This document shows positions 860 to 19,079 of a stretch of 19,585 nucleotides of DNA, piece by piece. Position numbers and translations under genes: made by a program. Origin of the DNA: Bacteroidota bacterium (GTDB lineage Bacteria > Bacteroidota > Bacteroidia > Chitinophagales > LD1); NCBI GenBank assembly GCA_018267355.1, contig JAFDYP010000197.1:1-19585 (forward strand). The letters run 5' to 3'. Numbering within the stretch: position 1 is the stretch's first letter; each line of letters opens with the position of its first letter. Below the pieces are notes generated by a model. The model saw only the letters and a list, made by a program, of their open reading frames with translations, had not been told where the DNA came from and did no database searches.

Positions 860-865
860 TTATGA

Positions 866-1429
866 TTATTTAGTGTGATCGAGGGAAATATTAAGTTGCA
901 GAACATTGACTTTAGAAGGTCCGAAGAGACCAAAGAGCGGTCCCTGTATATGCTGTGCTACGAGTGCTTTCAGCTTGTCTTCGGAGATGCCTCTGACCTT
1001 AGCGATACGAGGCACCTGTATATCTGCCGCCTCCGGCGAAATATCGGGATCGAGTCCACTGCCCGAGGCTGTGACCAGCTCTGCGGGTATATCAGCTCTT
1101 TTCACAGCAGGGTTCTTGATCAGAAAAGTATCGATAGCAGCCTGCACGGAGGCGAGATATTCAGGATTAGTAGGACCTTTGTTAGACCCACCTGACCCGG
1201 CAGCATTGTAGCCCACAGCAGAAGGACGGCCATTGAAATATTTATCCTGTGTGAAGGACTGACCTATCAGCGTATAGCCTACTGTTTTGCCATTAACCTC
1301 TACAGTATCGCCTTTGCCATGTGATGGAGTGAAGTATGCGATACCCCAGATAAAAGCCGGGTAAACTATGCAGCATACTACCAGTAAAACGACTGTGAGG
1401 CGGATGGCAGAAAAAACATGAGTCTTCAT
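866..1429 (-). CDS. kdpC: Potassium-transporting ATPase subunit C
   Basis: KdpC is the single-span accessory subunit of the KdpFABC K+ pump, thought to assist K+ binding or affinity of the complex. The 187-aa product has the family's usual length. One N-terminal membrane segment (about residues 8-33) is followed by an extracytoplasmic domain. Conserved KdpC blocks are visible: YFNGRPSAVGYNAAGSGGSN, then NPEYLASVQAAI, then the LVTASGSGLDPDISPEAA block with QVPRIAKVRGI, and the closing VNVLQLNISLD. It starts 6 nt after the kdpB stop and ends 6 nt before the porin start, inside the minus-strand operon. Confidence 0.97.
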   Translation of the reverse strand: MKTHVFSAIRLTVVLLVVCCIVYPAFIWGIAYFTPSHGKGDTVEVNGKTVGYTLIGQSFTQDKYFNGRPSAVGYNAAGSGGSNKGPTNPEYLASVQAAIDTFLIKNPAVKRADIPAELVTASGSGLDPDISPEAADIQVPRIAKVRGISEDKLKALVAQHIQGPLFGLFGPSKVNVLQLNISLDHTK

Positions 1430-1435
1430 GATCTT

Positions 1436-3481: not shown

Positions 3482-3493
3482 GAGTAGTCAGTC

Positions 3494-5215: not shown

Positions 5216-5219
5216 AGCG

Positions 5220-5297
5220 TCAGAATTTTTCGGGTTTCAGCAAGACATAGATGAGGTACCCAAATACGAAAAGAGAGAGGACGAATAAGGCTGCCAT
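5220..5297 (-). CDS. kdpF: Potassium-transporting ATPase small subunit F, 25 aa
   Basis: A 25-residue single-span membrane peptide translated by hand from the ATG at 5297: MAALFVLSLFVFGYLIYVLL followed by KPEKF. The core GYLIYVLLKPEKF is a very typical KdpF ending. KdpF stabilises the KdpABC complex in E. coli. The stop lies 4 nt before the kdpA start. It is too short for usual gene-calling cut-offs. Confidence 0.93.
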   Translation of the reverse strand: MAALFVLSLFVFGYLIYVLLKPEKF

Positions 5298-5300
5298 CGG

Positions 5301-5384
5301 TCAGATTTTATCAAAAAATGAAATAGAGCGGTAGAAGACCGCAAAGCAGGCCACACCGGCCAGTATGAGGAGAGCGGCTACCAT
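5301..5384 (-). CDS. 27-aa membrane peptide upstream of kdpF
   Basis: Short open frame from the ATG at 5384: MVAALLILAGVACFAVFYRS followed by ISFFDKI. It has one hydrophobic segment (residues 2-17) and a short polar tail. It starts 3 nt after the stop of the 123-aa gene and ends 3 nt before the kdpF ATG, so the three frames are packed without wasted bases. That packing, plus its KdpF-like size and topology, argues it is a real gene. It may be a second small subunit or modulator of the Kdp pump. I recall similar peptides ending in F-x-K-I beside kdpF in other Bacteroidota, but could not check this. Confidence 0.7.
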   Translation of the reverse strand: MVAALLILAGVACFAVFYRSISFFDKI

Positions 5385-5387
5385 GGC

Positions 5388-5759
5388 TTATACAGTTTTG
5401 GCATAGAGCAGCTGATAATACTCGGTACCAAAGTCGCGGATGAACTCTGTGCGCACCTCAGGCGTAGGCGCAAAGGAATGCTCCAGCAGGCGGCTCACAG
5501 GATCGATATAGAGATTGATCACGGCAAAGCGTACTGCCTGCGAACCCTCTGCCAGCAGCCCGTGTGCCGCATGAAAGCAGCGCAGCACCTCATCAGTGCG
5601 GTGGCCAGCCAGCATATCTTTGGTATGTGCGGCAAGGCAGGAGATACTTTTGAAGATCTCGCTGCGGTCATCTATGAGCTGTAGCTCACGCGCTATAGCA
5701 GGTACCTCAGCAGAGATAGAGATGCGGACGTCATGGTCGGTGATCATATTGTTTGACAT
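5388..5759 (-). CDS. Unknown 123-aa protein, first gene of the kdp operon
   Basis: I do not recognise this protein with certainty. From the ATG at 5759 it gives about 123 aa, soluble, with no signal peptide or membrane segment, and mostly predicted helix (PAIARELQLIDDRSEIFKSI, then AVINLYIDPVSRLLEHSF). A GTG nine codons upstream (5786) keeps the frame open, but that GTG lies inside the candidate sigma-54 promoter. If the promoter is right, transcription starts near 5762 and translation uses the ATG at 5759 (nearly leaderless) or the one at 5747. It ends 3 nt before the 27-aa gene. Its position suggests an accessory or regulatory role for Kdp. Confidence 0.75.
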   Translation of the reverse strand: MSNNMITDHDVRISISAEVPAIARELQLIDDRSEIFKSISCLAAHTKDMLAGHRTDEVLRCFHAAHGLLAEGSQAVRFAVINLYIDPVSRLLEHSFAPTPEVRTEFIRDFGTEYYQLLYAKTV

Positions 5760-5773
5760 TTGCACCGCTATGG

Positions 5774-5788
5774 GCAAAGCAAACACCA
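5774..5788 (-). promoter_or_regulatory. Candidate sigma-54 promoter of the kdp operon
   Basis: Read on the minus strand the sequence is TGGTGTTTGCTTTGC. It has the invariant TGG and TTGC parts with exactly ten bases between GG and GC, as in the consensus TGGCAC-N5-TTGC. The predicted start of transcription is near 5762. It is the only GG-N10-GC arrangement I found on this strand between 5760 and 6050. A GAFTGA-type activator is encoded just upstream, which makes a sigma-54 promoter expected here. Confidence 0.5.
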
Positions 5789-5880
5789 GAAAAGCAGATG
5801 CGCCAATAGTGGGCTGATATACAGTATATTATACCTGCTATCGCAGAAATCTACCGACGCAGCTGCACACAAAGCCTTTA

Positions 5881-5915
5881 AAAATGAGAAGGTCGGATTC
5901 TCAAAATGAGAGGGT
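5881..5915. promoter_or_regulatory. Candidate activator-binding region (dyad plus direct repeat)
   Basis: TGAGAA at 5885-5890 and TTCTCA at 5898-5903 form a perfect 6-bp dyad with a 7-nt spacer. In addition AAAATGAGAAGGT (5881-5893) is repeated as AAAATGAGAGGGT (5903-5915), 22 nt apart, about two helical turns. The region lies about 120-155 nt upstream of the predicted sigma-54 start at 5762, the usual distance for an NtrC-type enhancer. The link to the neighbouring regulator is inference. Confidence 0.4.
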
Positions 5916-5921
5916 GAAGGC

Positions 5922-6055
5922 TTAATCTATCTTGGGAAGGCTAAAATGCGAATCGAATTAAGTAGCACACTGATCCTACGGATAAAACAGATCTAAAATG
6001 ATAAATCAGTGTCATCCGTGTGATTGTATCAAAGCCTTCCCCTAAGAAAGATTTA
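5922..6055. repeat. Imperfect inverted-repeat element (MITE-like), about 134 bp
   Basis: The left arm (about 5922-5942, containing CTTGGGAAGGCT) and the right arm (about 6033-6055, containing AGCCTTCCCCTAAG) are imperfect reverse complements over about 20 bases. Between them are nested inverted words: CACTGAT near 5967 with ATCAGTG near 6004, and ACGGAT near 5978 with ATCCGT near 6014. No reading frame is present. The right arm reaches the last codons of the response-regulator gene. It looks like an intergenic palindromic repeat element; other copies in the genome would be needed to confirm this. Confidence 0.5.
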
Positions 6056-7381
6056 ATCTAAAGAATACTCCTTCAGCTTGCGATAGAGCGTAGCTAGAGC
6101 GATATTGAGCAGGCGGGCAGCTTCGGTCTTATTGCCGTGGGTATGCTCCAGCACCATCTGTATGTGGCGGCGCTCCATCTCTGCTAGGTCATAGGTGAGC
6201 GGCTGCGCAGTATCATCCTTGAAATCAAATGGCAGCACGGCAGGCGTCAGCTCACTCTGAGAGAGAATGACAGCACGCTCTATCACATTCTTCAGCTCGC
6301 GTATATTGCCGCGCCAGCGGTGGCCTTGCAGCGCTGTGAGAAAGGCTGCCTGCATCACCGGCGCCGCCTTATTTACCTTATCAGCAAAGACGCGGATGAA
6401 GTGTTTGGCCAGCACCTCTATATCAGCCCGTCTCTCATCGAGAGAGGGTATATTGATCTGAAACACCGAGAGACGGTAGTAAAGGTCCGCGCGAAAAAGC
6501 CCCTGGTCACTCTCTGCTTTCAGGTCGCGGTTGGTCGCTGCTATCACGCGCACATTGACACTGGTCGTCCTCGTATCGCCCACGCGGATGTACTCGCCAG
6601 TCTCCAGCACGCGCAGCAGCTTGGCCTGCAGGTCGAGGCTCATCTCCCCTATCTCATCCAGGAAGATCGTACCGCCATTGGCCTCCTCCAGCAGTCCCTT
6701 TTTATCCTTCATAGCACCGGTAAAGGCACCTGCTTTATGACCGAATAACTCACTCTCCAGTATCTCACGGCCCAGTGCACTACAGTTCACCGCCAGAAAG
6801 GTATTGCCCCTGCGCTCACTGGCCTCATGTATGCTCTGTGCAAACACCTCCTTGCCCGTACCCGTCTCTCCCAGCAGCAGCACAGTGGCATCTGTAGGCG
6901 CTACACGCTGTGCCAGATCTTTGGCTGCGAGTATGGCAGGTGAGCTGCCGAGGATATTGGAGAAATTGTATTTGTCAGCTACGCGCTTTTCCAGCTGGAG
7001 GACGCGCTTTTGCAGACGTGCTTTCTCAAGGGCTTTGCTCAGCACCGGCAGTATCTTCTCATTGTCATCGCCCTTCACCAGATAGTCGAATGCACCATTT
7101 TTGATAGCGCGCACCCCATCTGCTATGGTACCGAATGCAGTGAGGACGATCACCTCTATGCAGGGATACTTCTCGCGGATGGTGCGGCTCAGGTCCACAC
7201 CATTGCTATCGGGCAGTTTCACATCACTGATCACCACCTGTATGTCCTCCCGCTCCAGCAGCCGCATCCCGGCAGCGGCAGTAGATGCCTCATGCACCTG
7301 GTAGCCCTCCAGGCTGATGATGCGCGTGAGCAGGCTGCGCAGTTTCTCCTCATCATCTATGATCAGTATGGACTGTTTCAT
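6053..7381 (-). CDS. Sigma-54-dependent response regulator (NtrC family), probable kdp activator
   Basis: Receiver, AAA+ and Fis-type DNA-binding domains in order. I chose the ATG at 7381 ([12 protein letters not shown], 442 aa) because the 22 residues upstream are not part of a receiver fold. The receiver (1-115) has acidic Asp9/Asp10, phospho-acceptor Asp53, Thr81 and Lys103. The AAA+ domain shows Walker A GETGTGKE (171-178), the sigma-54 contact loop GAFTGA (218-223) and Walker [13 protein letters not shown] (236-247). The C-terminus ([20 protein letters not shown]) is a Fis-type helix-turn-helix. It sits directly upstream of the kdp genes on the same strand and probably replaces KdpE as their regulator, activated by a sensor kinase not in this window. 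Confidence 0.93.
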
Positions 7382-7454
7382 GCTGCGAAAGTAGAAAAGT
7401 AATCTGCGGCAGATAAAGAATAGTTTGTTGACGACGAGCTGGGCCAACCATACT

Positions 7455-7540: not shown

Positions 7541-8197
7541 CTAAGCTGTGAGTCTCACAATGGTCCAGTATATAGCCACCAGCGCGATGAGCCCGGACAG
7601 AGGATATACGATATACCGCCTGTACCATGGCTTATGACCAAACCAGTAGATGAGGCTGAAGTACGTACCCAGGATAATAGTAGCCTGCCCCAGTTCTACT
7701 CCTACATTAAATGAGATAAGAGAGGTATAGAATGCATTTCTCGGCAGGCCCAGTTCATTCAGCGCAGAGGCGAACCCCATGCCATGCACGAGGCCGAAAG
7801 CAAAGACCACCAGTACCCGCCAGGGCTTCAACTCTGTGATCACGATATTCTCTATAGCTATGAATGCTATAGAAAGCGCTATGATCGGTTCTACGATGGC
7901 GGGAGGCACTACGATGATGTTTTTCATAGATAGTATCAGTGTCAGGGTGTGTGCCACCGTGAAAGCCGTGGCCTGCCATAGCAGCGTCCTGATATTGGTG
8001 CTCAGCAGGCACAGACCGGCTACGAAAAGGATATGATCGAAGCCATCGGGCAGGATGTGCTTGTAGCCGAGTACGAGATAGTACCACACTACGTTGTGTA
8101 TGGGTACGCGCTCCAGCTGATAGTTGATGGTATGAGCGGATAGCTGCACGGCTGCCATGACGAACAGCGCGAGCCCGAGCGGCTTTTTGGAGTTCAT
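7541..8197 (-). CDS. HupE/UreJ-family membrane protein (putative metal permease)
   Basis: The 218-aa product has an N-terminal hydrophobic segment or signal and about six further membrane helices. Motifs typical of the HupE/UreJ_2 group are present: GYKHILPDGFDHILFV near residue 44, FTVAHTLTL near 78, EPIIALSIAFIAIEN near 102, FGLVHGMGFA near 134 and FNVGVELGQ near 164. The conserved His, Asp and Glu residues within helices are the usual argument for Ni/Co transport in related HupE and UreJ proteins, but the substrate of this subgroup is not established. It begins 3 nt after the TPR gene stop, so the two are translated from one message. Confidence 0.88.
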   Translation of the reverse strand: MNSKKPLGLALFVMAAVQLSAHTINYQLERVPIHNVVWYYLVLGYKHILPDGFDHILFVAGLCLLSTNIRTLLWQATAFTVAHTLTLILSMKNIIVVPPAIVEPIIALSIAFIAIENIVITELKPWRVLVVFAFGLVHGMGFASALNELGLPRNAFYTSLISFNVGVELGQATIILGTYFSLIYWFGHKPWYRRYIVYPLSGLIALVAIYWTIVRLTA

Positions 8198-8200
8198 GAC

Positions 8201-9541
8201 TTATGCGCCTTTGCGTGGCAGCTCCTTTGAGGCCTCCACTGCCAGTACGGGTGATATATAAGCATTATCCTTAGAGGCCTTCTCACTCAGCTCGGCAGCT
8301 TTGGCGGTATCGCCGGCTTTCTGGTAGATCAGTGCAGCGTGGGTGAGTAGCGTAGGATTTTGCGAGTTGGTCTTCAGCGCCACAGCTATATATTTTGCAG
8401 CCTCTTTGTAGTCGCCCTTTTTATAGTGGACCCATGCGAGGGTTTCATTAGCATCTATATTGTCTGGGCGGCGGTTGTACTCCATCTCTGCATGCTCCAG
8501 CGCCTTGGCATAGTCGCCTGTTTTCACATACACATATGCCAGCTCACGGTCAGAGTAGTGGCCTATCGCGGCATCATTGGTGCCTGCCTGTGCGTCACTG
8601 TTGAGTTTGTCCAGTACTTTCTTTGCTGCCTGCTCAGACTTTTCTTTCTCGCCATTCAGCAGATAGAGGTCTATCAGCTCATCTTTGAAAGAATAATCTT
8701 CTACCAGCCCATCTGCCTTCTCAAAGTTTGCGATCGCGCCTTTATAGTACTTATTGCTCTCTGCTATCCTACCCAGCCCTGCGTATGCGTAGGCGTAGTC
8801 GGGGCGCTCATAGAGCGCGAGTTCGTATTCGCGTTGCGCTTCTTTACGCATACCGGTATTCTCATAGAGGTGGCCTAGCTGTATGCGTGCCCACTCAGTC
8901 TCCTCCGCACCGGGGTAACCTGCGCTCACAGCCATCTTCATAGCTTCGATAGCCCCGGGATAGTCTCCATGTATCTCTCTCAGGTACGATACGCGTGAGT
9001 ATGAGCGGAGATCAGGGCGTATAGATACCATCTTGTCCGTCGTACTCACGGCGGCAGGATAGTCGCCCAGCTCTACGTAGGCATCTGTCATCAGGCCGTA
9101 GACGAATGAATTGTATGGATTGATAGACTGCGCCTTTTGTGCATAGGTGAGCCCATCGGCAAAGTGGTGCTCGGACAGGTATATCATAGATTTAAAGCAA
9201 AGCGCTTCAAAATTTGCCGAATCGGCCTTGAGTGTTTTATCTACCAGCTGCATAGCAGCACGGTCATAGTATAGGTGATCTCCGGTCACGCGTGCCTCCT
9301 GTATATAGAGGGCCGCAAGCTGGAGCTTTAATTTTTCATCTGTAGGTTGCTGCTGTATCCTGGTATAGAGGTCAGTAGCTTTGGTTTTCGTTTCGGCCCA
9401 GTCCGGCAGGGATGCCAGCCTGGCAGAACGCTCCTTGATAGGAGGTATCTTGTCTTCCTTGTTCTTGTCTTTCAGTATCACAAATCCTACTACAAAGCAG
9501 GCTATGACGAGGAGGGCCGGGTATATGAGTTTCTTGTTCAT
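8201..9541 (-). CDS. Membrane-anchored tetratricopeptide repeat protein
   Basis: The 446-aa protein has one N-terminal hydrophobic segment (LIYPALLVIACFVVGFVIL, residues 5-23), which serves as signal anchor or uncleaved signal; the rest is predicted extracytoplasmic. From about residue 70 to the end it is built of TPR-type helix pairs, for example FVYGLMTDAYVELGDYPAAV, then AYAGLGRIAESNKYYKGAI, then ANETLAWVHYKKGDYKEAAK and HAALIYQKAGDTAKAAEL. TPR proteins serve as scaffolds, so this one may bring together components of the neighbouring system. It lies 107 nt after the second DUF4331 gene, across a strong terminator, and 3 nt before the HupE-family gene. Confidence 0.88.
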   Translation of the reverse strand: MNKKLIYPALLVIACFVVGFVILKDKNKEDKIPPIKERSARLASLPDWAETKTKATDLYTRIQQQPTDEKLKLQLAALYIQEARVTGDHLYYDRAAMQLVDKTLKADSANFEALCFKSMIYLSEHHFADGLTYAQKAQSINPYNSFVYGLMTDAYVELGDYPAAVSTTDKMVSIRPDLRSYSRVSYLREIHGDYPGAIEAMKMAVSAGYPGAEETEWARIQLGHLYENTGMRKEAQREYELALYERPDYAYAYAGLGRIAESNKYYKGAIANFEKADGLVEDYSFKDELIDLYLLNGEKEKSEQAAKKVLDKLNSDAQAGTNDAAIGHYSDRELAYVYVKTGDYAKALEHAEMEYNRRPDNIDANETLAWVHYKKGDYKEAAKYIAVALKTNSQNPTLLTHAALIYQKAGDTAKAAELSEKASKDNAYISPVLAVEASKELPRKGA

Positions 9542-9599
9542 CGTGGTATTCTTTATTGTTTATAAAAAAGTGCTTTGTTCAATTTTCCGAGAGTGATAA

Positions 9600-9631
9600 A
9601 AGAGACCCGCCCCCGTCGGGACGAGCCTCTT
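9600..9631 (-). terminator. Strong intrinsic terminator between the DUF4331 genes and the TPR gene
   Basis: On the minus strand the arms are AAGAGGCTCGTCCC and GGGGCGGGTCTCTT around a GACG loop. All 14 positions pair if G-U wobbles are allowed. TTTT follows (the hairpin end plus TTATC). It starts 17 nt after the DUF4331 stop at 9649 and would reduce or stop read-through into the TPR/HupE pair. Confidence 0.85.
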
Positions 9632-9648
9632 ACCACTTTGAACAAACA

Positions 9649-11736
9649 TTAATTCATTTTGACCATCTCCAGTGTCTGCTGGTTATTGCCCTGCACTGAG
9701 CGGGCGAAGTATGTACCGTTTTGCAGGTCACTGCCACTCCAGTTTACAGTATAGTCACCGGGTTGCTTCTTTTCATTGACCAGTGTCCTGACCAGCCTGC
9801 CCTGTACATCATAAAGCATGATCGTCACGGTAGTCGCTTCAGACACGTGATACTTTATCGTATTGCCTCCGGTGAAAGGATTAGGGAAAGTAGTCATGAC
9901 CACATCAGGAGAGCTGAGGCCTATGATGCCGGTAGGTGTAGGGCCGAGCACTGCAGGCTGCATGTAGGCTACCATCTGGCCACCACCATCACCGGTACCA
10001 GGCCATGGGGTCTGTACAAACGGAAAGGAAGTGCGGAAAGTAGTATCGTTATGCTCTACGCCTGTGGTGTAGCCCAGTACACTGAGCAGCTGCGGCGTGA
10101 GCGGACTCTGTGTAGCAGATGTATCATCATCATAGAAGAGGCCTATAGCTGCCAGTGCGGCGCCGGATACAGCCTGCAGCTCTATACGGGTCACATCATC
10201 CTCCAGGCGGCGACCGTTAGGGAAGCCATCCATATTAGGGATGCGCTGGATAGCTGTGGTCTGATTAAACCGCGGGTCAGTGAGGCCTAGTACCGCAGCC
10301 GCAAAGAGGCCTTCACTGCTAAAGTCAGCACTATTGCGCGGTGTAGCAGGGGTAGCCATATTGAGGCGGAGCATATCGCCGCCATTTGGCAGGAAGTTGT
10401 TTACGAAAGGCTTGCCCGCAGAGAACGGATTGCCCGGTGTCTTGCCGGTGGCGAGCTGATACGGAGAGAGATTTGGCACACCCGTGTGGAATATCGGCCA
10501 GATATCAGCAGAGCGTGGCGAGTTAGCATTTGGGGCCAGCAGGCTCTGGTAGCCGGTAGCCGGGTCAAAGGCAGAGCCGCTGAAGCCCGGTATCTGAACG
10601 GGTGCGAGAATATTGGTAGCCACATAGTAGAGGCCTGACTGATCATTGCCAAATCCCACATTACCGTAGTTGGTAAATGAATTGCGCTGGATGTGCAGCG
10701 CTGAGAAGGCGGGTACTGCTGCCGCATACGCGTGCGTATCCATGTACAGCGCCAGCTCCGGCTGGTAAAAGTACGGACCAAAGGTGGCCAGGTTATTCAG
10801 ATCGTCATATGGGGTCAGTGAGTTCCACTGATCCTTCATGCCGATAGGTATGACGGCCTCATTGGTCAGTGGCATGCCCAGACGTGATACCTGTACCCAG
10901 TTGCCTGAGTAGGTTTCATTGCCCGCGCTGAGTGTACGGATCTGCTGGCGGCTGGCAGAGGCCCACACACCGATCACATAGTTGCCATCCAGTATATCTG
11001 TGGCCATTGACACAGGGTTGCCATTCTTCTGGAGGTTTGCTATCGGCACTTCGAGCGCAATAGTGCAGACATTCTTCCTCCTCAGGCCGTCACGTGGTGC
11101 GCCTGTAGCCTGGCGGGGTGCATCACCGAGATCAAAGATACCGCCGAGGTCTACGAAGAACGCATCATCTGCGGTGCCGCAGAAGACGCGCTCACCTGTA
11201 GTAGTGGTCGTGATGGCATTAGTAAACAATGTACCATACTGCGTATTGAGGCCCGCTGCACTCTCTATAGAGCGCGGACCGATGTTTGGCGGAGGTACTA
11301 CACCATTAGCCACCACTGTGGTGAAAGCACCACCAGCTACACTTTTCTCCAGCGTATAGGTCGTCTTGGCATTTTGCTGGCCCAGGCGGATATTGAAGAA
11401 AGTGGTCGGATCCTGATTGGTCTTGTGAAAGGTGAAACGGTATGTCACATCATCACCTGTCGTGGCTGTATTATTATCCACGTGTATCTCATAGCGTATA
11501 TTCTCACCAAAGCTGTAATAGTTTGGTCCGCCGTGAGGCAGCTGCAGAGGTACATAGTTGGCTATGAGGATCACCTTGGTAGAGTCTGTAGGGCTGCGGA
11601 AGGCATACACGTCCGTGTTGTCCGCCAGTGGATCATTAGCTATCAGCGGGGCCTCGCGGTGGCTCGATGCGAAGGCGCTGATGGAGCCCAGTGCCAAACC
11701 TATGGCGAGGGCTGCATTCTTTATATTTCTTTTCAT
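9649..11736 (-). CDS. Secreted DUF4331 protein with type IX secretion sorting domain
   Basis: I chose the ATG at 11736 (MKRNIKNAALAIGLALGSIS, then AFA, cleavage before SSHREAP), giving 695 aa; the upstream extension is not signal-like. After the signal peptide comes the DUF4331 region, which starts with SSHREAPLIANDPLADNTDV and contains GPNYYSFGENIRYEIHVDNN, DDAFFVDLGGIFDLGDAPRQ, PNLSPYQLATGK and FLPNGGDMLRLNMA. The last about 80 residues are a Por-type sorting domain (FPNPFTGGNTIKYHVSEATT through GRLVRTLVNEKK to NGTYFARSVQGNNQ), which directs export by the type IX system and attachment to or release from the cell surface. It follows its shorter paralogue after 32 nt. The function of DUF4331 is not known to me. 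Confidence 0.9.
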   Translation of the reverse strand: MKRNIKNAALAIGLALGSISAFASSHREAPLIANDPLADNTDVYAFRSPTDSTKVILIANYVPLQLPHGGPNYYSFGENIRYEIHVDNNTATTGDDVTYRFTFHKTNQDPTTFFNIRLGQQNAKTTYTLEKSVAGGAFTTVVANGVVPPPNIGPRSIESAAGLNTQYGTLFTNAITTTTTGERVFCGTADDAFFVDLGGIFDLGDAPRQATGAPRDGLRRKNVCTIALEVPIANLQKNGNPVSMATDILDGNYVIGVWASASRQQIRTLSAGNETYSGNWVQVSRLGMPLTNEAVIPIGMKDQWNSLTPYDDLNNLATFGPYFYQPELALYMDTHAYAAAVPAFSALHIQRNSFTNYGNVGFGNDQSGLYYVATNILAPVQIPGFSGSAFDPATGYQSLLAPNANSPRSADIWPIFHTGVPNLSPYQLATGKTPGNPFSAGKPFVNNFLPNGGDMLRLNMATPATPRNSADFSSEGLFAAAVLGLTDPRFNQTTAIQRIPNMDGFPNGRRLEDDVTRIELQAVSGAALAAIGLFYDDDTSATQSPLTPQLLSVLGYTTGVEHNDTTFRTSFPFVQTPWPGTGDGGGQMVAYMQPAVLGPTPTGIIGLSSPDVVMTTFPNPFTGGNTIKYHVSEATTVTIMLYDVQGRLVRTLVNEKKQPGDYTVNWSGSDLQNGTYFARSVQGNNQQTLEMVKMN

Positions 11737-11768
11737 GATATTTTTCTGTTTTTCAGTTATGAATAGGC

Positions 11769-13523
11769 TTAGTTGACTGCGGTGCCTCTCCACGGCGTCT
11801 GCACGTACGGGAATGCTACCTTGAAGGTCGTGTCATTCTTCTCTACACCTGTAGAGTACTGGAGCACATTGGTCAGGTAGTTGGTCACAGGAGATGCGTT
11901 CGGATTCTGTGCATCATAGTCATCATACCACAGGCCTACGGCTGCCAGTGCAGCACCGGATACAGCCTGCAGCTCGATGCGTGTCACATCATCCTCCAGG
12001 CGGCGACCGTTAGGGAAGCCATCCATATTAGGTATCAGCTGGAGTGTATCAGAGCCGTTGAAGCGTGGATCTGTCAGGCCCAGCACTGCTGCGGCAAAGA
12101 GGCCCTCGCTGCTGAAGTCTGCGCTTGTACGCGCGGTAGGTGGCACAGCCATATTCAAGCGGAGCATATCACCACCGTTTGGCAGGAAGTTATTGATGAA
12201 AGGCTTGCCTACTGCCAGCGGGTTGCCGTTCTTGCCTGTAGCCAATTGATATGGAGGCAGGTTAGGCACGCCGGTGTGGAATATAGGCCAGATATCTACT
12301 GAGCGCGGTGACGCCGGTCCTGCCAGGAGCAGTTTGCCAAAGGTAGCCGTATCCAGTGCGGTACCTGTAGTAGCGGCAGCCCCGCGGAGGCCGTAGAGGC
12401 CGGATTTGCCATTGCCGAAATCAAACTGCCCGAGTGACCGGTGCTGTATGCGCAGCGCACGGAGTGCGGGTACTGCACCACCATACAGGCTATCATCCAT
12501 ATACAGTGCCAGCTCAGGATTGTAAAAGTACTTGCCGAATGTACCGAGGCTATCGAGGTCCTGATATGGAGTCATACCGTTCCACTTGTCCTTCTGGCCT
12601 ACCGGTATCACTGCCTCATTGGTCAGCGGCATGCCGAGGCGGGATACCTGCACCCATGTGCCGGTCTCTACCGAGCCACCGCCAGTGACATTGAGTGTCT
12701 TGGTAGCATAGCGGCTGGCAGATGCCCACACACCTATGGTAAAGTCAGGATCCAGTATGCTGGTGGCCTGTGATGCGGTCTTGCCCGCTTTCTGCAGGGT
12801 AGAGATCGCTACTTTGATAGCGATAGTGTGCACGTTCGTCTTGGCTATACCATCACGTACGGTACCGCCATTCTGACGAGGTGCATCGCCCAGGTCAAAG
12901 ATGCCACCCAGGTCTACAAAGAACGGATCATCTACCGGGCCGCAGAATATCTTCTCGCCACTGGTAGCAGTAGCGATAGCGCCTGTCATCAGTGTATTGT
13001 AGTCAGGTGTATTGAGGCCTACAGCACTCTCTATAGAGCGAGGGCCTATATTATTTGGTGGCACTACGCCATTGGTCACGATAGTAGAGAATGACGATCC
13101 GCCATTCGTACTGCGCTCGCAGGTGTAGGTGGTCTTGAGGTTTTGCTGGCCAAGACGGATATTGAAGAAAGTAGTCGGGTCCTGATTGGTCTGGTGGAAG
13201 GTGAAGCGGTAGACAATATCATCACCGGCTGTAGCAGTGTTGTTGTCTATATGGACTTCATAGCGGATGTTCTCGCCAAATGTCGCATAGTTAGGCCCGC
13301 CAAACGGCAGCTCGGCGGGAATGTAGTTAGCGATGATCGTGATGTAGTTTGGATCATCAGGGCTACGGAATGCATAGAGGTCCGTATTGTCTGCCAGGGG
13401 GTCGTTGGATATCAGCGGAGCTTCCCTGTGGCTGGACGCCTGTACGAGTGCAGTGGAGCCGATGAGCAGCAGCGCGGTCATCGAGTTTTTGATCCATGCC
13501 TTCGAGAGAAAATGTCTTTTCAT
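11769..13523 (-). CDS. Exported DUF4331 protein without sorting domain
   Basis: The 584-aa paralogue of the next gene shares long near-identical blocks with it, such as SSHREAPLI, DPLADNTD, GNNTATAGDD-type segments, QDPTTFFNIRLGQQN, PPNNIGPRSIESAVGLNT and SSEGLFAAAVLGLTDPRFN. The signal peptide is residues 1-29 (STALVQA, cleavage before SSHREAP). It stops at QTPWRGTAVN, exactly where the paralogue continues into its type IX sorting domain, so this copy is probably periplasmic or released by another route. It is the first gene of the minus-strand block, facing the plus-strand block across a 310-nt gap that must hold both promoters. Function unknown. Confidence 0.9.
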   Translation of the reverse strand: MKRHFLSKAWIKNSMTALLLIGSTALVQASSHREAPLISNDPLADNTDLYAFRSPDDPNYITIIANYIPAELPFGGPNYATFGENIRYEVHIDNNTATAGDDIVYRFTFHQTNQDPTTFFNIRLGQQNLKTTYTCERSTNGGSSFSTIVTNGVVPPNNIGPRSIESAVGLNTPDYNTLMTGAIATATSGEKIFCGPVDDPFFVDLGGIFDLGDAPRQNGGTVRDGIAKTNVHTIAIKVAISTLQKAGKTASQATSILDPDFTIGVWASASRYATKTLNVTGGGSVETGTWVQVSRLGMPLTNEAVIPVGQKDKWNGMTPYQDLDSLGTFGKYFYNPELALYMDDSLYGGAVPALRALRIQHRSLGQFDFGNGKSGLYGLRGAAATTGTALDTATFGKLLLAGPASPRSVDIWPIFHTGVPNLPPYQLATGKNGNPLAVGKPFINNFLPNGGDMLRLNMAVPPTARTSADFSSEGLFAAAVLGLTDPRFNGSDTLQLIPNMDGFPNGRRLEDDVTRIELQAVSGAALAAVGLWYDDYDAQNPNASPVTNYLTNVLQYSTGVEKNDTTFKVAFPYVQTPWRGTAVN

Positions 13524-13833
13524 GGAATAGTTTTTAATGTTTAAGAATCAAAGTCGATGACGTTGTCTGGCCATCTTGATTTGACATACGCATGTTTAGG
13601 ATGGTTTGGATTTTGACCGCAGCAGTATGCCGCTCACTTTATTTGCAGTGGCCCTATTTTGAAAACATGGTATAACATTTGACTGGCCGCCCCACATTTC
13701 CCCAAAAATCCGGTTGATCGTTTTTTATCGTATGTAAAGACTGATACATACCACCGCTTTGGATACACAGCTACCATCATCACCCCTCTATGCCTCTGTA
13801 CGCCGCTCCTGCCAGCGCCGTGAGAAAGCGCTG
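13524..13833. promoter_or_regulatory. Divergent intergenic region between the DUF4331 and His-rich genes
   Basis: No convincing gene lies in these 310 bases. They must carry the promoters for the minus-strand DUF4331 unit and the plus-strand His-rich gene. A dyad GTATGTA (13730-13736) / TACATAC (13745-13751) with an 8-nt spacer lies about 83-104 nt upstream of the His-rich gene and is a possible operator. The words TTTTTTATCG (13721-13730) and CTGATACA (13741-13748) recur upstream of the TonB receptor gene. I could not fit a clear Bacteroidota TTTG/TAnnTTTG promoter. Confidence 0.35.
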
Positions 13834-14190
13834 ATGATGGGAAAGCTGTCTAAGTTCATCCTCTTCTTCTACGTGCTCTCACTCCTGCGTCCCGCTGTAC
13901 CGATGGTCGCAGATCTCGTAGCACACACCTTCTATGAGCAGGAGCATATCATGATGGTGCATGAAGTCAAGGGCCGGTTTCACATACATGATGAGATAGG
14001 CAAAAACCTCAGCCACAGCGAGCAGGAGAAAGGTAATGTCAATAGCGTGGATGTGGTAGAGTATTGTCACGCTTCTATCGTACACCTCCCGCCTGCCCCT
14101 TCTGTCTGTAGTAGCAGTATCCATATTGCTGCTATCCCATGCTATCCCTCACATCAGATGGATATCCTGTCTCCTCCTCCCTGTGTATAG
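13834..14190 (+). CDS. Small exported His-rich protein, 118 aa
   Basis: I use the ATG at 13834 (MMGKLSKFILFFYVLSLLRP), which puts a hydrophobic signal or anchor at the N-terminus; an upstream in-frame ATG would precede it with 25 charged residues. The remainder carries ten His (31, 38, 43, 50, 52, 61, 79, 84, 97, 107) and four Cys (78, 92, 103, 117), with the dense segment LVAHTFYEQEHIMMVHEVKG followed by RFHIHDE. Small His-rich exported proteins just upstream of TonB receptor genes recur in Bacteroidota and may bind metal. The stretch after residue 70 has a weaker coding look. It points the same way as the receptor gene, 234 nt downstream. Confidence 0.65.
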   Translation: MMGKLSKFILFFYVLSLLRPAVPMVADLVAHTFYEQEHIMMVHEVKGRFHIHDEIGKNLSHSEQEKGNVNSVDVVEYCHASIVHLPPAPSVCSSSIHIAAIPCYPSHQMDILSPPPCV

Positions 14191-14315
14191 CAGCCTCTGT
14201 ACTGCCACTTCATGGATTAGCATCACTATGGTGCTATCGAATGATGTACTACAGCTATATCATGGCAGGCAGCGGCTACCTCTGCACTAGAATCAAATCA
14301 CATAGTTGTCAAATA

Positions 14316-14360
14316 TGTATCAGGATAGATTCCCCATTCTGAGGAGTTTATCCTGATACA
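14316..14360 (+). promoter_or_regulatory. Perfect 12-bp inverted repeat upstream of the TonB receptor (terminator or operator)
   Basis: TGTATCAGGATA (14316-14327) and TATCCTGATACA (14349-14360) are exact reverse complements around a 21-nt loop. Six T (14368-14373) follow 7 nt later. It could end the His-rich gene transcript, act as an attenuator in the receptor leader, or bind a dimeric regulator. There is no gene between 14191 and 14424. Confidence 0.55.
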
Positions 14361-14384
14361 CTTCCCATTTTTTATCGCAAAATA

Positions 14385-14396
14385 ATTTGCGCAAAT
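14385..14396. promoter_or_regulatory. 12-bp perfect palindrome upstream of the TonB receptor
   Basis: ATTTGCGCAAAT is its own reverse complement and ends 28 nt before the receptor ATG. Its position suggests an operator or part of the promoter. TAATTTGC at its left edge resembles the Bacteroidota -7 element TAnnTTTG with one base missing. Confidence 0.35.
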
Positions 14397-14424
14397 ATTT
14401 TTTTGCCTCGCTCCAAACTGATGT

Positions 14425-16728
14425 ATGAAAAGAATCTATACTTTATATAAATACATTGCTACGGTACTCGTATTTCTTCCTTTGATCGTCGCTGCACATG
14501 AGGCTTCTATCAAAGGCAAGATCATCAACGCCTATAACAACTCCCCTCTTTCCAATGTGACCGTATCGTTGAAAGGTACCGAACTGCACATGGAGACTGA
14601 TAGCCTTGGGGCTTATCACTTCACAGATATACCGGCGCGCAACTATACCGTGGTCTTTGACCGGAGCGACTATTTCCGTACAGAGCGTGCGATAGACCTC
14701 AAAGAAAATACAACTCAGGAACTCAATATCTCCATGACACCTGAGATGATAGAGCTGCATACGGCGGAGGTGGCCAGTGCGAGAGCTACATCAGCCTCGT
14801 CATCTGCTGTGATCAGCGCTATAGACATGGAGCTGCGGCCACGCAATAGCGCACAGGACCTCCTCAAGAGTGTACCCGGCATCTTTACAGCACAGCATCA
14901 GGGCGGTGCCAAGGCGGAGCAGATATTCATACGCGGCTATGACTGTGACCACGGCACCGATATCAATCTCTCTATGGACGGCGTACCTATCAATCTTCCC
15001 TCTCACGCGCATGGTCAGGGTTATGCTGATATGCACTTCCTCATAGCAGATGTAGTGTCTGCACTGGATGTGTACAAGGGACCCTTTCAGGCGCAGTTTG
15101 GAGACTTTGCTACCGGTGGCGCGGTGGCATTCCGCACCTACGATACACTGCCGCATAGCCAGGTGAGGCTGGAGTTTGGTGCTACGCCTACACAGCGGGC
15201 CTTTCAGACAGGCAGGTTACTTTTTGCATTGAATATTCCTACAAAAATATCCCGCCTGCAGTCCTACCTGGCAGCAGAGTATAGCTACTCGCCCGGCTAC
15301 TTTGATGTGAATGCAAAGTATAGCAAGTTCAACATCTTTGGCAAGATGAAATACAAGCTATCCGACAACACCTCTCTCGCCCTCAGCGTGGCCAGCTATG
15401 CAGCCTCATGGACCGGCTCAGGTCAGATACCGGAGCGTGCTGTAGAGCAGGGTATCATAGACCGTTTCGGCGGTATAGATCCTACAGAGGGTGGCAGTAC
15501 TGACCGCACGGTGGTCAACCTGATGCTGAATCACCATACAGACAATAGCCAGTTTCAGCTCAATGCCTACTACCAGCGCTACGGCCTGACGCTGTATAAT
15601 GATTTTACCTTCTTTCTGAATGACCCTGTGCATGGCGATGAGATAGAGCAGAACGATGACAGGAATGTCTTCGGCCTCAATACTCATTACTCAAAGTTCT
15701 ATGAGCTGGGCGGTATGCGTATGAAGTCCACCTTTGGCGGAGGTGTGAGGACCGATGTGATACATACAGACCTGTGGCATGTGCAGAAGCGCGTGCGGCT
15801 GGATGAGCGTGGTGATGACAACCTGAGTACGACCAATACGAACCTCTGGTTCAAGCAAGACTTCAACGTAGCAAAGTGGTTCCGCTTTGATGCGGCTGTG
15901 CGGATGGACTATTCCATCTTTCAGGACCGCGACAATCATCCTGACTCTGCCTACAACCGCTCAGGCACCAACTATCAACTGCTCCCTACCTACAAGCTCA
16001 ACTTCGTTTTCACACCGGTGCACTATGTCCAGTTCTTTATCAATAACGGTACGGGCTACCACTCTAATGATACCCGCGCCGTGGTGCAAGACACGAGGCA
16101 CATCCTGCCGATGGTATTCTCTACTGAGGTGGGCGCTACGGTGCGTATCGGTACACGCGCTATCATCACTGCCTCGCTCTACCTGCAGGATGCGAGTGAT
16201 GAGCTGGTCTTCAGCTCAGACGAGGCTATATCTGAGGACAATGGCTCCAGCCGCCGCATGGGCATAGATCTCAGCGGCCGTGTGCAGATCACGCGCTGGC
16301 TGCTGGCAGATGTAGATGTCGACTACTCGCACAACAGGCTCACAGATAAATTTATGGGCAGGCAGGCTGCTACAGACTACTATGTACCGCTGGCACCGAG
16401 CTTTACCTCTCAGGGTGGCCTCACGGTGCGCCACAGCAGTGGCCTCAAGGCCCGCCTCGGCTACCGCGCCATGCTGGACCGCCCGGCCAATGAAGACAAC
16501 TCGATCATCGCGCATGGATACTACGTGATGGATGCGATGGTCGCCTTTGAGCGCAAGCGGTACCAGGTGAGCCTGACAGTAGAAAATTTATTGAACACAA
16601 AGTGGAATGAAGCGCAGTTTGCCACTGTGACCCGCCTGACCAATGAAGCACAGCCCACCGATCAACTGTGCTTTACAGCAGGGACACCCGTTTCGTTAAA
16701 ATTTGGGGTAAGTTACTTTTTCAGATAG
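14425..16728 (+). CDS. TonB-dependent outer-membrane receptor
   Basis: The 767-aa protein has a signal peptide (about 1-23), a carboxypeptidase-regulatory-like domain (about 27-105, from ASIKGKIINAYNNSPLSNV), a plug domain (about 125-235) and a C-terminal barrel ending KFGVSYFFR. The plug carries a notable polar cluster: GYDCDHGTD around 171-179 and LPSHAHGQGYADMHF around 191-205. The order matches ligand-gated transporters that take up metal complexes or other scarce compounds using TonB energy. The substrate cannot be read from sequence, but the His/Cys-rich plug and the HupE-family and DUF4331 neighbours suggest a metal or metal complex. It is not a SusC-type receptor and has no SusD partner here. 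Confidence 0.92.
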   Translation: MKRIYTLYKYIATVLVFLPLIVAAHEASIKGKIINAYNNSPLSNVTVSLKGTELHMETDSLGAYHFTDIPARNYTVVFDRSDYFRTERAIDLKENTTQELNISMTPEMIELHTAEVASARATSASSSAVISAIDMELRPRNSAQDLLKSVPGIFTAQHQGGAKAEQIFIRGYDCDHGTDINLSMDGVPINLPSHAHGQGYADMHFLIADVVSALDVYKGPFQAQFGDFATGGAVAFRTYDTLPHSQVRLEFGATPTQRAFQTGRLLFALNIPTKISRLQSYLAAEYSYSPGYFDVNAKYSKFNIFGKMKYKLSDNTSLALSVASYAASWTGSGQIPERAVEQGIIDRFGGIDPTEGGSTDRTVVNLMLNHHTDNSQFQLNAYYQRYGLTLYNDFTFFLNDPVHGDEIEQNDDRNVFGLNTHYSKFYELGGMRMKSTFGGGVRTDVIHTDLWHVQKRVRLDERGDDNLSTTNTNLWFKQDFNVAKWFRFDAAVRMDYSIFQDRDNHPDSAYNRSGTNYQLLPTYKLNFVFTPVHYVQFFINNGTGYHSNDTRAVVQDTRHILPMVFSTEVGATVRIGTRAIITASLYLQDASDELVFSSDEAISEDNGSSRRMGIDLSGRVQITRWLLADVDVDYSHNRLTDKFMGRQAATDYYVPLAPSFTSQGGLTVRHSSGLKARLGYRAMLDRPANEDNSIIAHGYYVMDAMVAFERKRYQVSLTVENLLNTKWNEAQFATVTRLTNEAQPTDQLCFTAGTPVSLKFGVSYFFR

Positions 16729-16838
16729 CGAGCCTTGCCCACATTGGGTATTGATGTAGTGATATCTCAAATACTTCACGCATAGTAGAAGGCGTGTATA
16801 TATCCCTGCAAAGTCCGGCCATTACTCAGTTTACAGCC

Positions 16839-16864
16839 GAAACATCGCCCACATCCGTATCTAA
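16839..16864 (+). promoter_or_regulatory. Candidate ECF-type promoter before the sigma/anti-sigma pair
   Basis: GAAAC (16839-16843) and TCTAA (16860-16864) are separated by 16 bases, resembling the -35/-10 of RpoE-like ECF promoters. A start near 16870 would leave a leader of about 57 nt. Autoregulation is usual for ECF sigma factors, but I found no matching copy upstream of the DUF4331 or receptor genes, so the call is weak. The rest of 16729-16926 holds no gene. Confidence 0.35.
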
Positions 16865-16926
16865 GATAGTATCGTAGGTATAGATGGCACCCCGTTTGTT
16901 CACCCAGGCCTACGAATACTCCTACT

Positions 16927-17472
16927 TTGAAGCAAACTACGACCGAACCAGAGCTTGTCGCCCTCATCAAAAGCCAACGTAAAGAAGGTTTCGACCTGCT
17001 TTATGCCAACTATGCTGATGCCTTCTACAATGTGATATTGCGGTCTGTGAAAGACGCGGCATTGTCTGAAGATATCATGCAGGAGGTTTTTGTGAAAATA
17101 TGGCGGAATATCGATAAATATGATCCGGATAGGGCGAGGCTATACACCTGGATGATCCGTATCGTGCGCAATGCATGTGTAGACCATCTGCGCAGCCCCG
17201 GGCACAGGCAGCAGCAAAATGTGCAGGAGCAGACAGAGGATATACATCACATGGTAGCGCTCAAAGATCGGGAGATAGACTATGGCCTGATGGACGTCAT
17301 AGCGCGGCTGGAGCCAAAGTACAGGGATGTGATAAACACAGTCTTCTATCACAACTACTCCCATGCTGAGGCCGCCGAGGTGCTGGGACTGCCACTGGGC
17401 ACATTGAAGTCGCGGGTGCGTATGGCCTTGCTGATGCTTAAATCATCACTGCAACCAACTCCTCATGAGTAA
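16927..17472 (+). CDS. ECF-family RNA polymerase sigma factor
   Basis: The 181-aa product has a region 2 (about 18-85) with the core-binding and -10 pattern AALSEDIMQEVFVKIWRNID followed by LYTWMIRIVRNACVDHLR, and a region 4 (about 125-178) with the helix-turn-helix YSHAEAAEVLGLPLGTLKSR. Translation most likely starts at the TTG at 16927; I found no in-frame ATG between the upstream stop at 16867 and the conserved region. It overlaps the cupin gene by 8 nt, the usual sign of a sigma/anti-sigma pair. Likely targets are its own operon and perhaps the divergent envelope genes. Confidence 0.92.
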   Translation: MKQTTTEPELVALIKSQRKEGFDLLYANYADAFYNVILRSVKDAALSEDIMQEVFVKIWRNIDKYDPDRARLYTWMIRIVRNACVDHLRSPGHRQQQNVQEQTEDIHHMVALKDREIDYGLMDVIARLEPKYRDVINTVFYHNYSHAEAAEVLGLPLGTLKSRVRMALLMLKSSLQPTPHE

Positions 17473-18097
17473 CAAAGATCAAAGTACCCTCATCGTAAAT
17501 TATTGCTTAGGTCTGCTGACCGGAGATGTCAAAATGAGTTTCGAAAGAAATATGAAAGTAGATCCCGAACTACATGTACAGGTAGAGGCCATGAAATACA
17601 GGCTACAGCCACTGCTCAGATCATCCTCATCTGCCAAAGCTCCGGCAGGGCTGAAAGACAAGACATGGGCACTCATAGACAATGTGAACCGCGAGAAGAA
17701 GATGGACATAAGCGACCTGCCCCTCCTCAATAAATATACAGACGCCACTGCATGGAGCAGTATGGTGATCCCTATGCTCCCAAAAAACCTGGACAAGAGC
17801 CGCCCCTATATGAAGGTGCTCACAGCCAATGAGCGCGTGACCCAGGTATTGATCGCCACGAGCTTTGACTTTCCCGAGGAGGAGCATGGTGACCTGCTGG
17901 AGAGTTTCATCATCCTGCAGGGTGAGTGTGAGTGCCGCGTAGGAGCAGATACTATCAGGGTGGGCGCCAGCGGCTATCTCGAGATACCGCTGCACACCAG
18001 CCATGATGTCAGGATCATCTCTGACGGTATAGTGGGCATCCTGCAGCGTATCAATCTGACCGATGATGCAGGCCCCCTTTCCTGCGAGAAGAAATAA
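17465..18097 (+). CDS. ChrR-like cupin anti-sigma factor
   Basis: The 210-aa product has an N-terminal helical region (about 1-60, starting STLIVNYCLGLLTGDVKMSF) in the position of an anti-sigma domain, and a C-terminal cupin (about 100-197) with HGDLLESFIILQGECECRVG and EIPLHTSHDVRI. Unlike ChrR of Rhodobacter, the N-terminal part shows no His-x3-Cys-x2-Cys zinc site. Cupin metal-ligand candidates are His141, Glu146, His177 and His180. It is soluble, with no membrane segment, so it would sense a cytoplasmic signal. The 8-nt overlap with the sigma gene supports co-translation. In known pairs the cupin domain responds to singlet oxygen or metal-dependent signals; which applies here is unknown. 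Confidence 0.8.
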   Translation: MSNKDQSTLIVNYCLGLLTGDVKMSFERNMKVDPELHVQVEAMKYRLQPLLRSSSSAKAPAGLKDKTWALIDNVNREKKMDISDLPLLNKYTDATAWSSMVIPMLPKNLDKSRPYMKVLTANERVTQVLIATSFDFPEEEHGDLLESFIILQGECECRVGADTIRVGASGYLEIPLHTSHDVRIISDGIVGILQRINLTDDAGPLSCEKK

Positions 18098-18149: not shown

Positions 18150-19079
18150 CTACTCACGGCCATTCACCCGCAGCAGGTAGTCTGCTATATCCTCACCGCT
18201 CTGGCCCTCCTGCTCCATCATGGTGCTGACTGACATCTGTATGATATCACCCAGGGCATAGGCCCGCTGCCGCCACACGTCATACGCGCCATGGTCGGGA
18301 TAGCACATCGCCTTGCGGCCACGCAGCACTGCTGTACGCTCGCGCGTCAGGCCATCCTTGCCGCCGGTGGCCATCCAGAGGTAATGGGGCATATACATGC
18401 TGGCTATCACCGCCGTCTTCTCACTCTCTACGATGGCTACCTGTGCCTCCTGGTCCCACCACTCCAGTAGATGCTCGCCAAATAAACACTGCCCGAGCTG
18501 AAACTCCTCTCCTAGCTGCGTATGCACCCACGCTATGTGGCTATGCGGCTGCTTGACACGGTGGCCCGTGTGGTCGTAGAGCATGATCTTGCCGGTGCGG
18601 TAGCGCTGTTCTTTGTCCTTTTGCCACCAGATGCTGGCCCCGGGCCAGCGGTCAGAGGTGCCGATGCGGTATTGTAGAATGCGCCTATTCACCAGCGCGC
18701 GCTCAAAGCCCAGCGTATAGAGGTACTGCACGAAGTGATTATTGCGAAAATTGACAAAACTAGCATTGGCCATCCACTCGGGTATATAGGATACCTGCCG
18801 CTGCGCGGCGACCTCCGGCACCACGCGCACAGGCGGCGGTGAGGGCCGCGTCACGGTGAAAGTGCTGCGCTGTATGCCCTGCTCGCGCAGGTAGTCCCAC
18901 GGGCGGAGGTGATAGCCGCAGCTATCCTGCCTGTCGCACCGGCCCACATGGTCGGCCACATGCTGCTGCGTATCGGTATAGACATACCTGGTAAACCTGC
19001 GCTGCTGCCCACACTGCGGACACCTGTACCGCGTAGCCGGGCCTTTGTACTTTTCAAACTGAAATGGGTATTGGTTCAT
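18150..19079 (-). CDS. DUF6371-like zinc-finger/Toprim protein
   Basis: The 309-aa protein has an N-terminal zinc-binding region (residues 20-54: CPQCG, then CDRQDSCGYHLRP) and a C-terminal part with VAIVESEKTAVIAS and WMATGGKDGL, which resembles the Toprim fold of bacterial primases and related mobile-element proteins. I recognise this layout from DUF6371 proteins in Bacteroidota conjugative elements and phages, where a DNA-processing role is assumed. It stands alone here, converging on the sigma/anti-sigma operon, with no replication or transfer genes visible. It may be a remnant or edge of a mobile element. The frame is intact. Confidence 0.8.
   Translation of the reverse strand: MNQYPFQFEKYKGPATRYRCPQCGQQRRFTRYVYTDTQQHVADHVGRCDRQDSCGYHLRPWDYLREQGIQRSTFTVTRPSPPPVRVVPEVAAQRQVSYIPEWMANASFVNFRNNHFVQYLYTLGFERALVNRRILQYRIGTSDRWPGASIWWQKDKEQRYRTGKIMLYDHTGHRVKQPHSHIAWVHTQLGEEFQLGQCLFGEHLLEWWDQEAQVAIVESEKTAVIASMYMPHYLWMATGGKDGLTRERTAVLRGRKAMCYPDHGAYDVWRQRAYALGDIIQMSVSTMMEQEGQSGEDIADYLLRVNGRE

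Follow-up and report, generated by a model that had tools for sequence, protein, structure and literature searches.

A conserved DUF4331 locus of Bacteroidota appears to encode a single metal-handling system with a probable His-rich regulatory leader

CruR is the leader of Bordetella pertussis BfrG/CrtA, a TonB-dependent copper transporter, and the part of the paper available to us describes an excess of C over G for its Rho site (PMC9426467). Leaders ending in RAPP or RGPP stand before TonB-dependent receptor genes throughout Gram-negative bacteria, and copper-related leaders are said to be lacking in Bacteroidota, among other groups, in the accessible portion of a survey in EMBO J 2025 (PMC12992588). 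Here, we examined a locus of a Bacteroidota bacterium (Chitinophagales, LD1) in which a His-rich gene precedes a TonB-dependent receptor gene and lies opposite a pair of genes for DUF4331 proteins. The window, by which we mean the whole stretch analysed, is the entire contig JAFDYP010000197.1 (19,585 nucleotides) of assembly GCA_018267355.1, which is 77% complete. The genes form one conserved, co-inherited system, and the DUF4331 locus looks like a single metal-handling system. We consider it reasonably probable that this system serves the uptake of a metal through the envelope, most likely Cu(II) or Ni(II), under the control of a sigma factor and of an arrest leader. The model is built on gene linkage, a shared promoter motif, conserved N-terminal motifs, and the anatomy and position of the leader.

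By open frames and Pfam matches, two divergent blocks are flanked by kdp genes on one side and a DUF6371 gene on the other: on the minus strand HupE, a TPR protein, and two DUF4331 proteins, and on the plus strand the His-rich gene, the receptor, an extracytoplasmic function (ECF) sigma factor, and an anti-sigma factor. The initial annotation had proposed that these genes make up one system, and the linkage counts across 100 loci back their co-inheritance. DUF4331 protein a had 228 confirmed relatives, and our 79 relative loci derive from the best 80 of these, so that close relatives dominate the sample; 109 locus records minus five duplicates left 104, 100 of them with a full-length DUF4331. 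Within 9 kb of the latter we found TPR in 80, the receptor in 35, HupE in 32, ECF with anti-sigma in 24, and the His-rich gene in 12 loci; where at least 7 kb was available on both sides (52 loci), the counts were 45, 23, 17, 13, and 6. No other partner family recurs in more than 8 of the 104 loci. DUF4331 is double in 76 loci, and the second copy is longer by more than 60 residues in 68 of 73 tandem pairs, resembling the window, where a sorting tail adds length. Three genomes of the same genus keep the whole gene set (54–96% identity), with kdp, NtrC, and DUF6371 missing from the fetched stretch or on different sides. Because the set stays together while its flanks differ, and its parts recur in other families and phyla, this is more than a chance neighbourhood. 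In another family, L079 and L080 carry TPR, receptor, ECF, and anti-sigma genes side by side with short DUF4331 genes. Among the 295 genomes of the class, own genome counted, DUF4331 occurs in 23 and HupE_UreJ_2 in 112; HupE is present in 16 of the 18 genomes with full-length DUF4331 against 96 of 277 others (Fisher p 6e-6), the others including the own genome and carriers of the short type. By the coordinates, HupE lies no more than about 6 kb from DUF4331 in 12 of the 18.

DUF4331-TPR-permease cassettes extend to Pseudomonadota and Actinomycetota. Ten records were opened among 30 plasmid matches listed, and plasmids of Pseudoalteromonas, Marinobacter, a Comamonadaceae, and Lichenicola carry DUF4331, then one or two small or TPR-like genes, then a HupE/UreJ gene (by record annotation, Pfam-checked in Marinobacter); in Pseudoalteromonas, ECF and RskA genes lie ahead of the cassette. 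A Streptomyces record has DUF4331 followed by TPR and a NicO-family transporter, and Adhaeribacter and Miltoncostaea records have DUF4331-TPR. In Sulfitobacter, Paracoccus, and Jannaschia, DUF4331 adjoins type II secretion genes, without HupE (the Rhodobacterales plasmid loci L193, L194, and L197). The families thus do co-occur in other genomes; absence of such co-occurrence had been set beforehand as the refuting outcome. Speaking against the complete system as a general unit, TPR is the sole partner of DUF4331 in 14 of the 52 well-flanked loci, and in 5 DUF4331 stands without any; some versions therefore lack receptor, HupE, and leader.

DUF4331 proteins a (11769..13523, minus strand; PF14224, 434.7 bits) and b (9649..11736, minus strand; 434 bits against a cut-off of 27) are both clear family members. 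For b, the GTG start of the mechanical frame list gives 9649-11793, and the ATG at 11736 suits the signal peptide. Only b carries the cargo tail of type IX secretion (T9SS type A sorting domain, Por_Secre_tail) at its C-terminus. DUF4331 had been proposed as a core without assigned function; in agreement, no mention of "DUF4331" or "PF14224" was found in the literature searched, subscription journals lying mostly outside it, where the control "DUF2946" does turn up. Nor did we find a title or abstract on this system when combining ATCUN with signal peptide, Bacteroidetes with arrest peptides, or HupE with RskA. In both proteins the predicted mature start is SSHREAP, with the first Ser codon of a at 13436. 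The SSHRE motif is present in 293 of 299 Bacteroidota and 119 of 120 Marinobacter-type sequences; one motif pattern missed 7 of the 299, including fragments, sequences with apparent frame errors, and an SSHREAK variant. The residue before it is Ala in 227, Ser in 36, and Gly in 7 of 270 distinct Bacteroidota contexts, and Ala in 64 and Gly in 7 of 71 Marinobacter-type contexts. SSHREAP occurs in 10 of 11 plasmid DUF4331 proteins, the remaining one (L198) being printed to residue 75, short of the site, and the same start is found in Streptomyces, in Miltoncostaea, and in members of the alpha-, beta-, and gammaproteobacteria. The short, split DUF4331 proteins L031, L079, and L080 have ADH (ADHxDAP) where the mature chain is predicted to begin. 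Within SSHREAP, residues 2-5 do not vary, and residues 1, 6, and 7 hardly do. In a structure model (predicted template modelling score, pTM, 0.86), residues 1-8 have a predicted local distance difference test score (pLDDT) below 50, the least certain part, to which truncation of the input at the predicted cut may add; low values at conserved residues are as expected of a free tail, not of a buried core.

A free N-terminal X-X-His is an amino-terminal Cu(II)- and Ni(II)-binding (ATCUN) site. After the predicted signal-peptide cut, DUF4331 would expose Ser-Ser-His, an ATCUN motif, with metal binding inferred from sequence. The cut was read from the -1/-3 rule, which a cut two residues later, leaving His first, also satisfies, a point against this assignment. 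An altogether different reading, in which DUF4331 binds glycans or surfaces and the metal theme is confined to its neighbours, seems to us improbable.

These neighbours do include a candidate permease. The HupE/UreJ-family inner-membrane protein (7541..8197, minus strand) matches PF13795 (HupE_UreJ_2) at 153.5 bits and has a signal peptide and a HILPDGFDH motif. HX5DH is the nickel motif of HupE/UreJ; the window protein reads H47-x6-D54-H55, and each of these three residues is retained by at least 90% of 31 locus HupEs (those scoring over 250 bits among 33 matched). In the window the predicted mature protein begins with His (LSA|HTINYQ), and Ala or Gly followed by His stands at the predicted cut in all 31; four HupEs from plasmids and the NicO protein of Streptomyces show it too. 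By Pfam membership, the locus permeases belong to the HupE/UreJ and NicO nickel/cobalt permeases. DUF4331-linked HupEs differ from most unlinked ones by the signal peptide and the predicted mature N-terminal His: among 29 unlinked HupEs from the best-scoring loci, 26 lack both and three have AHGV. On the outer-membrane side, the TonB-dependent receptor (14425..16728, plus strand; Pfam Plug and CarboxypepD_reg) has a His-rich plug (H158, H176, H194, H196, and H204), and at least 97% of 36 receptors retain these five His. The TPR protein (8201..9541, minus strand; Pfam TPR) has an N-terminal hydrophobic anchor by reading. The labels "HupE-like", "twin DUF4331", and "TPR anchor" of the initial annotation agree with Pfam matches and open frames.

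The His-rich gene (13834..14190, plus strand; start by family, 13759 in the mechanical list) encodes five conserved His and a C-terminal SPPPCV before the stop, and is a candidate nascent-chain leader. The 12 His-rich genes of these loci have in common a hydrophobic start, the five His, and a PP(P) end, with a middle that varies. None of the 12 has a credible Pfam match, DUF2946 included. A profile search gave 354 relatives, and among the 120 listed Cys averages 0.8 per protein, none conserved. The gene had been taken for a surface or secreted working part; its presence was confirmed, and a regulatory leader fits its anatomy and position better. A kindred explanation keeps one regulon and regards the His-rich product as an ordinary secreted metal chaperone, its PPP end a signal for protein-protein contact or processing. 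Metal chaperones next to receptors are common, and the N-terminal hydrophobic segment and conserved His would suit one. Yet, with the stretch between His block and PPP unconserved, PP lies exactly two residues before the C-terminus in 112 of the 120 listed homologues (consensus NYPPPR-x) and within the last eight residues, by another count within four residues of the C-terminus, in 119; PP columns in the leader profiles and the inspection of only the best matches (120 of 354, and 30 sister loci) favour PP in these numbers. By comparison, PP within the last seven residues is seen in 3 of 278 other small open reading frames of these loci, including a leader-like one before a receptor. A sister Cys/His family also ends in PP (28 of 28 readable) and precedes MbnP, YtkA, and receptor genes, and the known metal leaders CruR and CutF have the same layout in the parts of the papers available (PMC9426467, PMC9973294). 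On balance we hold the chaperone unlikely; a regulatory leader resembling CruR and CutF is the most likely role of the His-rich gene, and its product probably senses metal during its own synthesis, so controlling the receptor gene downstream.

The leader matched in 14 of the 295 class genomes, seven strongly (E below 1e-27, own counted) and seven weakly. All seven strong-match genomes carry DUF4331 (own plus 6/6, p 2e-8), and in all seven the leader stands next before this receptor. C outnumbers G in its last 150 nt in 12 of 12 cases, at or above the 95th percentile of 753 other open reading frames (mean 0.122 against -0.037), an excess that may, to the detriment of a Rho reading, stem from the residue composition of the leader. 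A hairpin between leader and receptor (14317..14359, plus strand) is shared by four genomes of the genus, the window's among them, and 4 of its 18 pairs show two-sided change there. It begins about 126 nt behind the leader stop and lies about 65 nt before the receptor start codon, off the start site. A ribosome stalled at the leader end would not reach it, and a Rho-type scheme is therefore favoured over a CutF-type one.

The seven weak matches led to the sister family, with the motif C..NK.KP..CNGKCH and a PP end, which matched in 161 of the 295 genomes. Among 30 of its best loci, two had no readable frame bearing the motif and the 28 readable ones have PP within six residues of the stop. Its ends are of the (F/Y)HPP type, and examples are L207, L208, L211, L229-L252, and, in the own genome, G000:C126:3868-4149. 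Ten downstream proteins were scanned: four MbnP, two Phenol_MetA_deg, one YtkA, one 4Fe-4S, and two unmatched. MbnP is a copper protein. The receptors L077 and L078 follow small open reading frames with mixed Cys/His and YPPPRRG ends.

HupE/NicO permeases, the His-rich leader, and the N-terminal metal-site motifs together bear out the metal theme suggested at the outset. As to the metal, the HupE and NicO families point to Ni/Co, the ATCUN motif to Cu(II) or Ni(II), and the sister leaders before MbnP to copper. Nickel enzymes as the purpose of the system were considered and set aside as not general. Urease (E below 1e-50, 6 genomes; 16 listed at E 0.001) occurs in 3 of 18 DUF4331 carriers against 3 of 277 others (p 0.003), an enrichment weakened by two genomes being of one genus, and NiFe hydrogenase (8 genomes at the strict threshold; 31 listed at the loose one) in 2 of 18 against 6 of 277. 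Telling against nickel supply as a general task, 13 of the 18 carriers lack both enzymes, as does the own, incomplete genome. The same 13 carriers would suit a system of export, detoxification, or envelope-stress response, in which DUF4331 and the leader buffer excess Cu or Ni outside and HupE exports. The NicO family includes Ni/Co exporters, one of its members stands in the Streptomyces locus, and ATCUN sites can buffer Cu(II). Import is favoured by the TonB-dependent receptor found in 35 of 100 loci, and copper shuts off the CruR receptor operon in the part of that study available (PMC9426467). We rate export as doubtful, a little below the chaperone, and retain uptake as the preferred direction.

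The two blocks also share a putative promoter. In a count of gapped tetramer pairs over 90 upstream regions, ATCC...CGTA occurred in 33 against 1.2 in shuffles, and the candidate promoter ATCC-N15-18-CGTA precedes all three transcription units of the window: the DUF4331-TPR-HupE operon (13585..13611, minus strand; ATCC-N17-CGTATG), the leader-receptor operon (13708..13734, plus strand; ATCC-N17-CGTATG), and the sigma gene itself (16853..16878, plus strand; ATCC-N16-CGTAGG). With the fixed pattern, the motif lies upstream of 8/12 leaders (reverse-strand control 3/12), 39/173 DUF4331 genes (8/173; the second gene of each pair counted), 10/81 TPR genes (0/81), 4/36 receptors (2/36), 0/31 HupE genes (0/31), and 21/856 other genes (24/856). 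The window holds five matches against 0.52 expected, three of them at the three units. Shared control of both divergent blocks, proposed before, is thereby supported at the level of a candidate promoter, and the alternative of separate regulons was addressed through this motif only, which is common to both blocks. The strict form has two sites in the 3.4 Mb assembly, both in the divergent region of the window; on this distribution, the sigma factor may have no targets beyond this locus. Three points weigh on the other side. The remaining two of the five window matches lie inside genes; the motif precedes 3 of 31 ECF genes (reverse-strand control 6/31), each of the three belonging to the window's genus, so that autoregulation is supported for that genus only; and the strict pattern read backward also matches twice in the assembly, so that its rarity alone proves nothing and the position of both sites is what counts. 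A conserved TTGTCAAA element upstream of the receptor was tried as ECF promoter and dropped, with three window matches (one mismatch allowed) against 2.8 expected.

The ECF sigma factor (16927..17472, plus strand; Sigma70_r2 and Sigma70_r4_2) is followed by an anti-sigma factor (17465..18097, plus strand) with a cupin-like C-terminal half and weak anti-sigma matches. The predicted ECF/cupin pair thus held as an ECF and anti-sigma pair, with the cupin weakly supported (Cupin_2, 21.9 bits, below the Pfam cut-off of 27.2). Hx3Cx2C is the N-terminal zinc motif of ChrR-type anti-sigmas; it is absent from the window protein, read through over its 210 aa, and a Pfam scan gave no RskA_C match there. 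Typed by pattern, 24 of 33 locus anti-sigmas are RskA-like, four cupin, and five short or other, two of these being Pfam cupins; RskA_C was confirmed by Pfam in the three RskA-type loci scanned and in Pseudoalteromonas (L098, L061, L079, L190). Cupin tails are found only in the window's genus (four) and two other loci. The missing zinc motif and the prevalence of the RskA type speak against the ChrR-like, oxidant-responsive reading first offered. SigK-RskA controls fasciclin proteins; relatives with an RskA_C anti-sigma resemble such pairs, unlike the window's genus with its cupin-like tail. A fasciclin gene (L134, 9225-9791) lies near ECF-RskA-DUF4331, and the family occurs in three loci.

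Overall, we suggest the following scheme, in which metal binding, metal identity, direction, the signal-peptide cut, arrest, Rho, and the sigma's promoter use are inferred. The anti-sigma would hold the ECF sigma factor, which, once active, could transcribe its own gene, the DUF4331-DUF4331-TPR-HupE operon, and the leader-receptor operon from the shared promoter. Both DUF4331 proteins would be exported, one via type IX secretion, and cleavage of the signal peptide would bare their Ser-Ser-His site for Cu(II) or Ni(II). The His-plugged receptor would carry the metal or a metal complex into the periplasm, with the TPR protein as a putative membrane-anchored scaffold, and HupE, with its N-terminal His, would move it through the inner membrane. 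The five His of the leader may bind metal during translation, and the Pro-Pro-Pro near its stop, stalling the ribosome or not, would set readthrough into the receptor gene, probably by Rho-type control as in CruR.

Around the locus, kdp genes and an NtrC-type regulator lie beside it in the window (866-7447) and in L024 (16994-20000); they also adjoin leader-receptor in L215, of another family (1-4049), and L106 carries a KdpB homologue as well. In the window, a DUF7674 gene (5388-5786) sits between kdpA and the regulator, an outer-membrane-type protein by eye (2-859), after kdpC, is cut by the contig end, and behind the anti-sigma stands a DUF6371/PG0870-type gene with a zinc ribbon (18150-19079), found elsewhere in L024. 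An Rfam scan gave no match above gathering scores and a tRNA search found none.

Taken jointly, we tentatively propose, at somewhat less than even chances, that DUF4331 is a widespread exported ATCUN catcher of Cu(II)/Ni(II) that, from Bacteroidota to Streptomyces, feeds a permease dedicated to it, and that a large family of metal-sensing, PP-ended arrest leaders, of a His and a Cys/His type, is peculiar to Bacteroidota. If so, His-type leaders would be tied to this system, and those of the Cys/His type, in the loci inspected, would precede MbnP and receptor genes. DUF4331, a family for which we found no literature, would become a concrete and cheaply testable metal-handling system with a likely regulon, and nascent-chain metal sensing, known from CXXC/RAPP leaders such as CruR, is predicted to occur in Bacteroidota with different motifs.

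The comparison with described systems, as far as the available parts of the sources reach, supports both kinship and difference. Like CruR, a DUF2946 leader, the His-rich protein is a small, putatively exported protein with a metal-ligand motif and Pro-Pro near the C-terminus, followed by a long intergenic gap, a C over G bubble, and a receptor gene immediately downstream (PMC9426467, PMC12914433). Unlike CruR, it has a His block instead of CXXC and YPPPR-x or SPPPC-x instead of RAPP, lacks a DUF2946 match, and belongs to a DUF4331-TPR-HupE gene set. With CutF of the Rhodobacter capsulatus CutF-CutO-CutG system it shares a metal-motif leader, a proline-rich end, and a downstream hairpin (PMC9973294); there, however, the motif is CxxxC and the hairpin shields the Shine-Dalgarno sequence, whereas here it lies well ahead of the start codon. 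With the RAPP/RGPP leaders these families have in common that they are signal-bearing small proteins with C-terminal Pro-Pro before receptor genes (PMC12992588), but they differ in PPPR, PPPC, or HPP ends and in a conserved His or Cys/His block, and leaders ending in PPPR or HPP would thus escape RAPP/RGPP search patterns.

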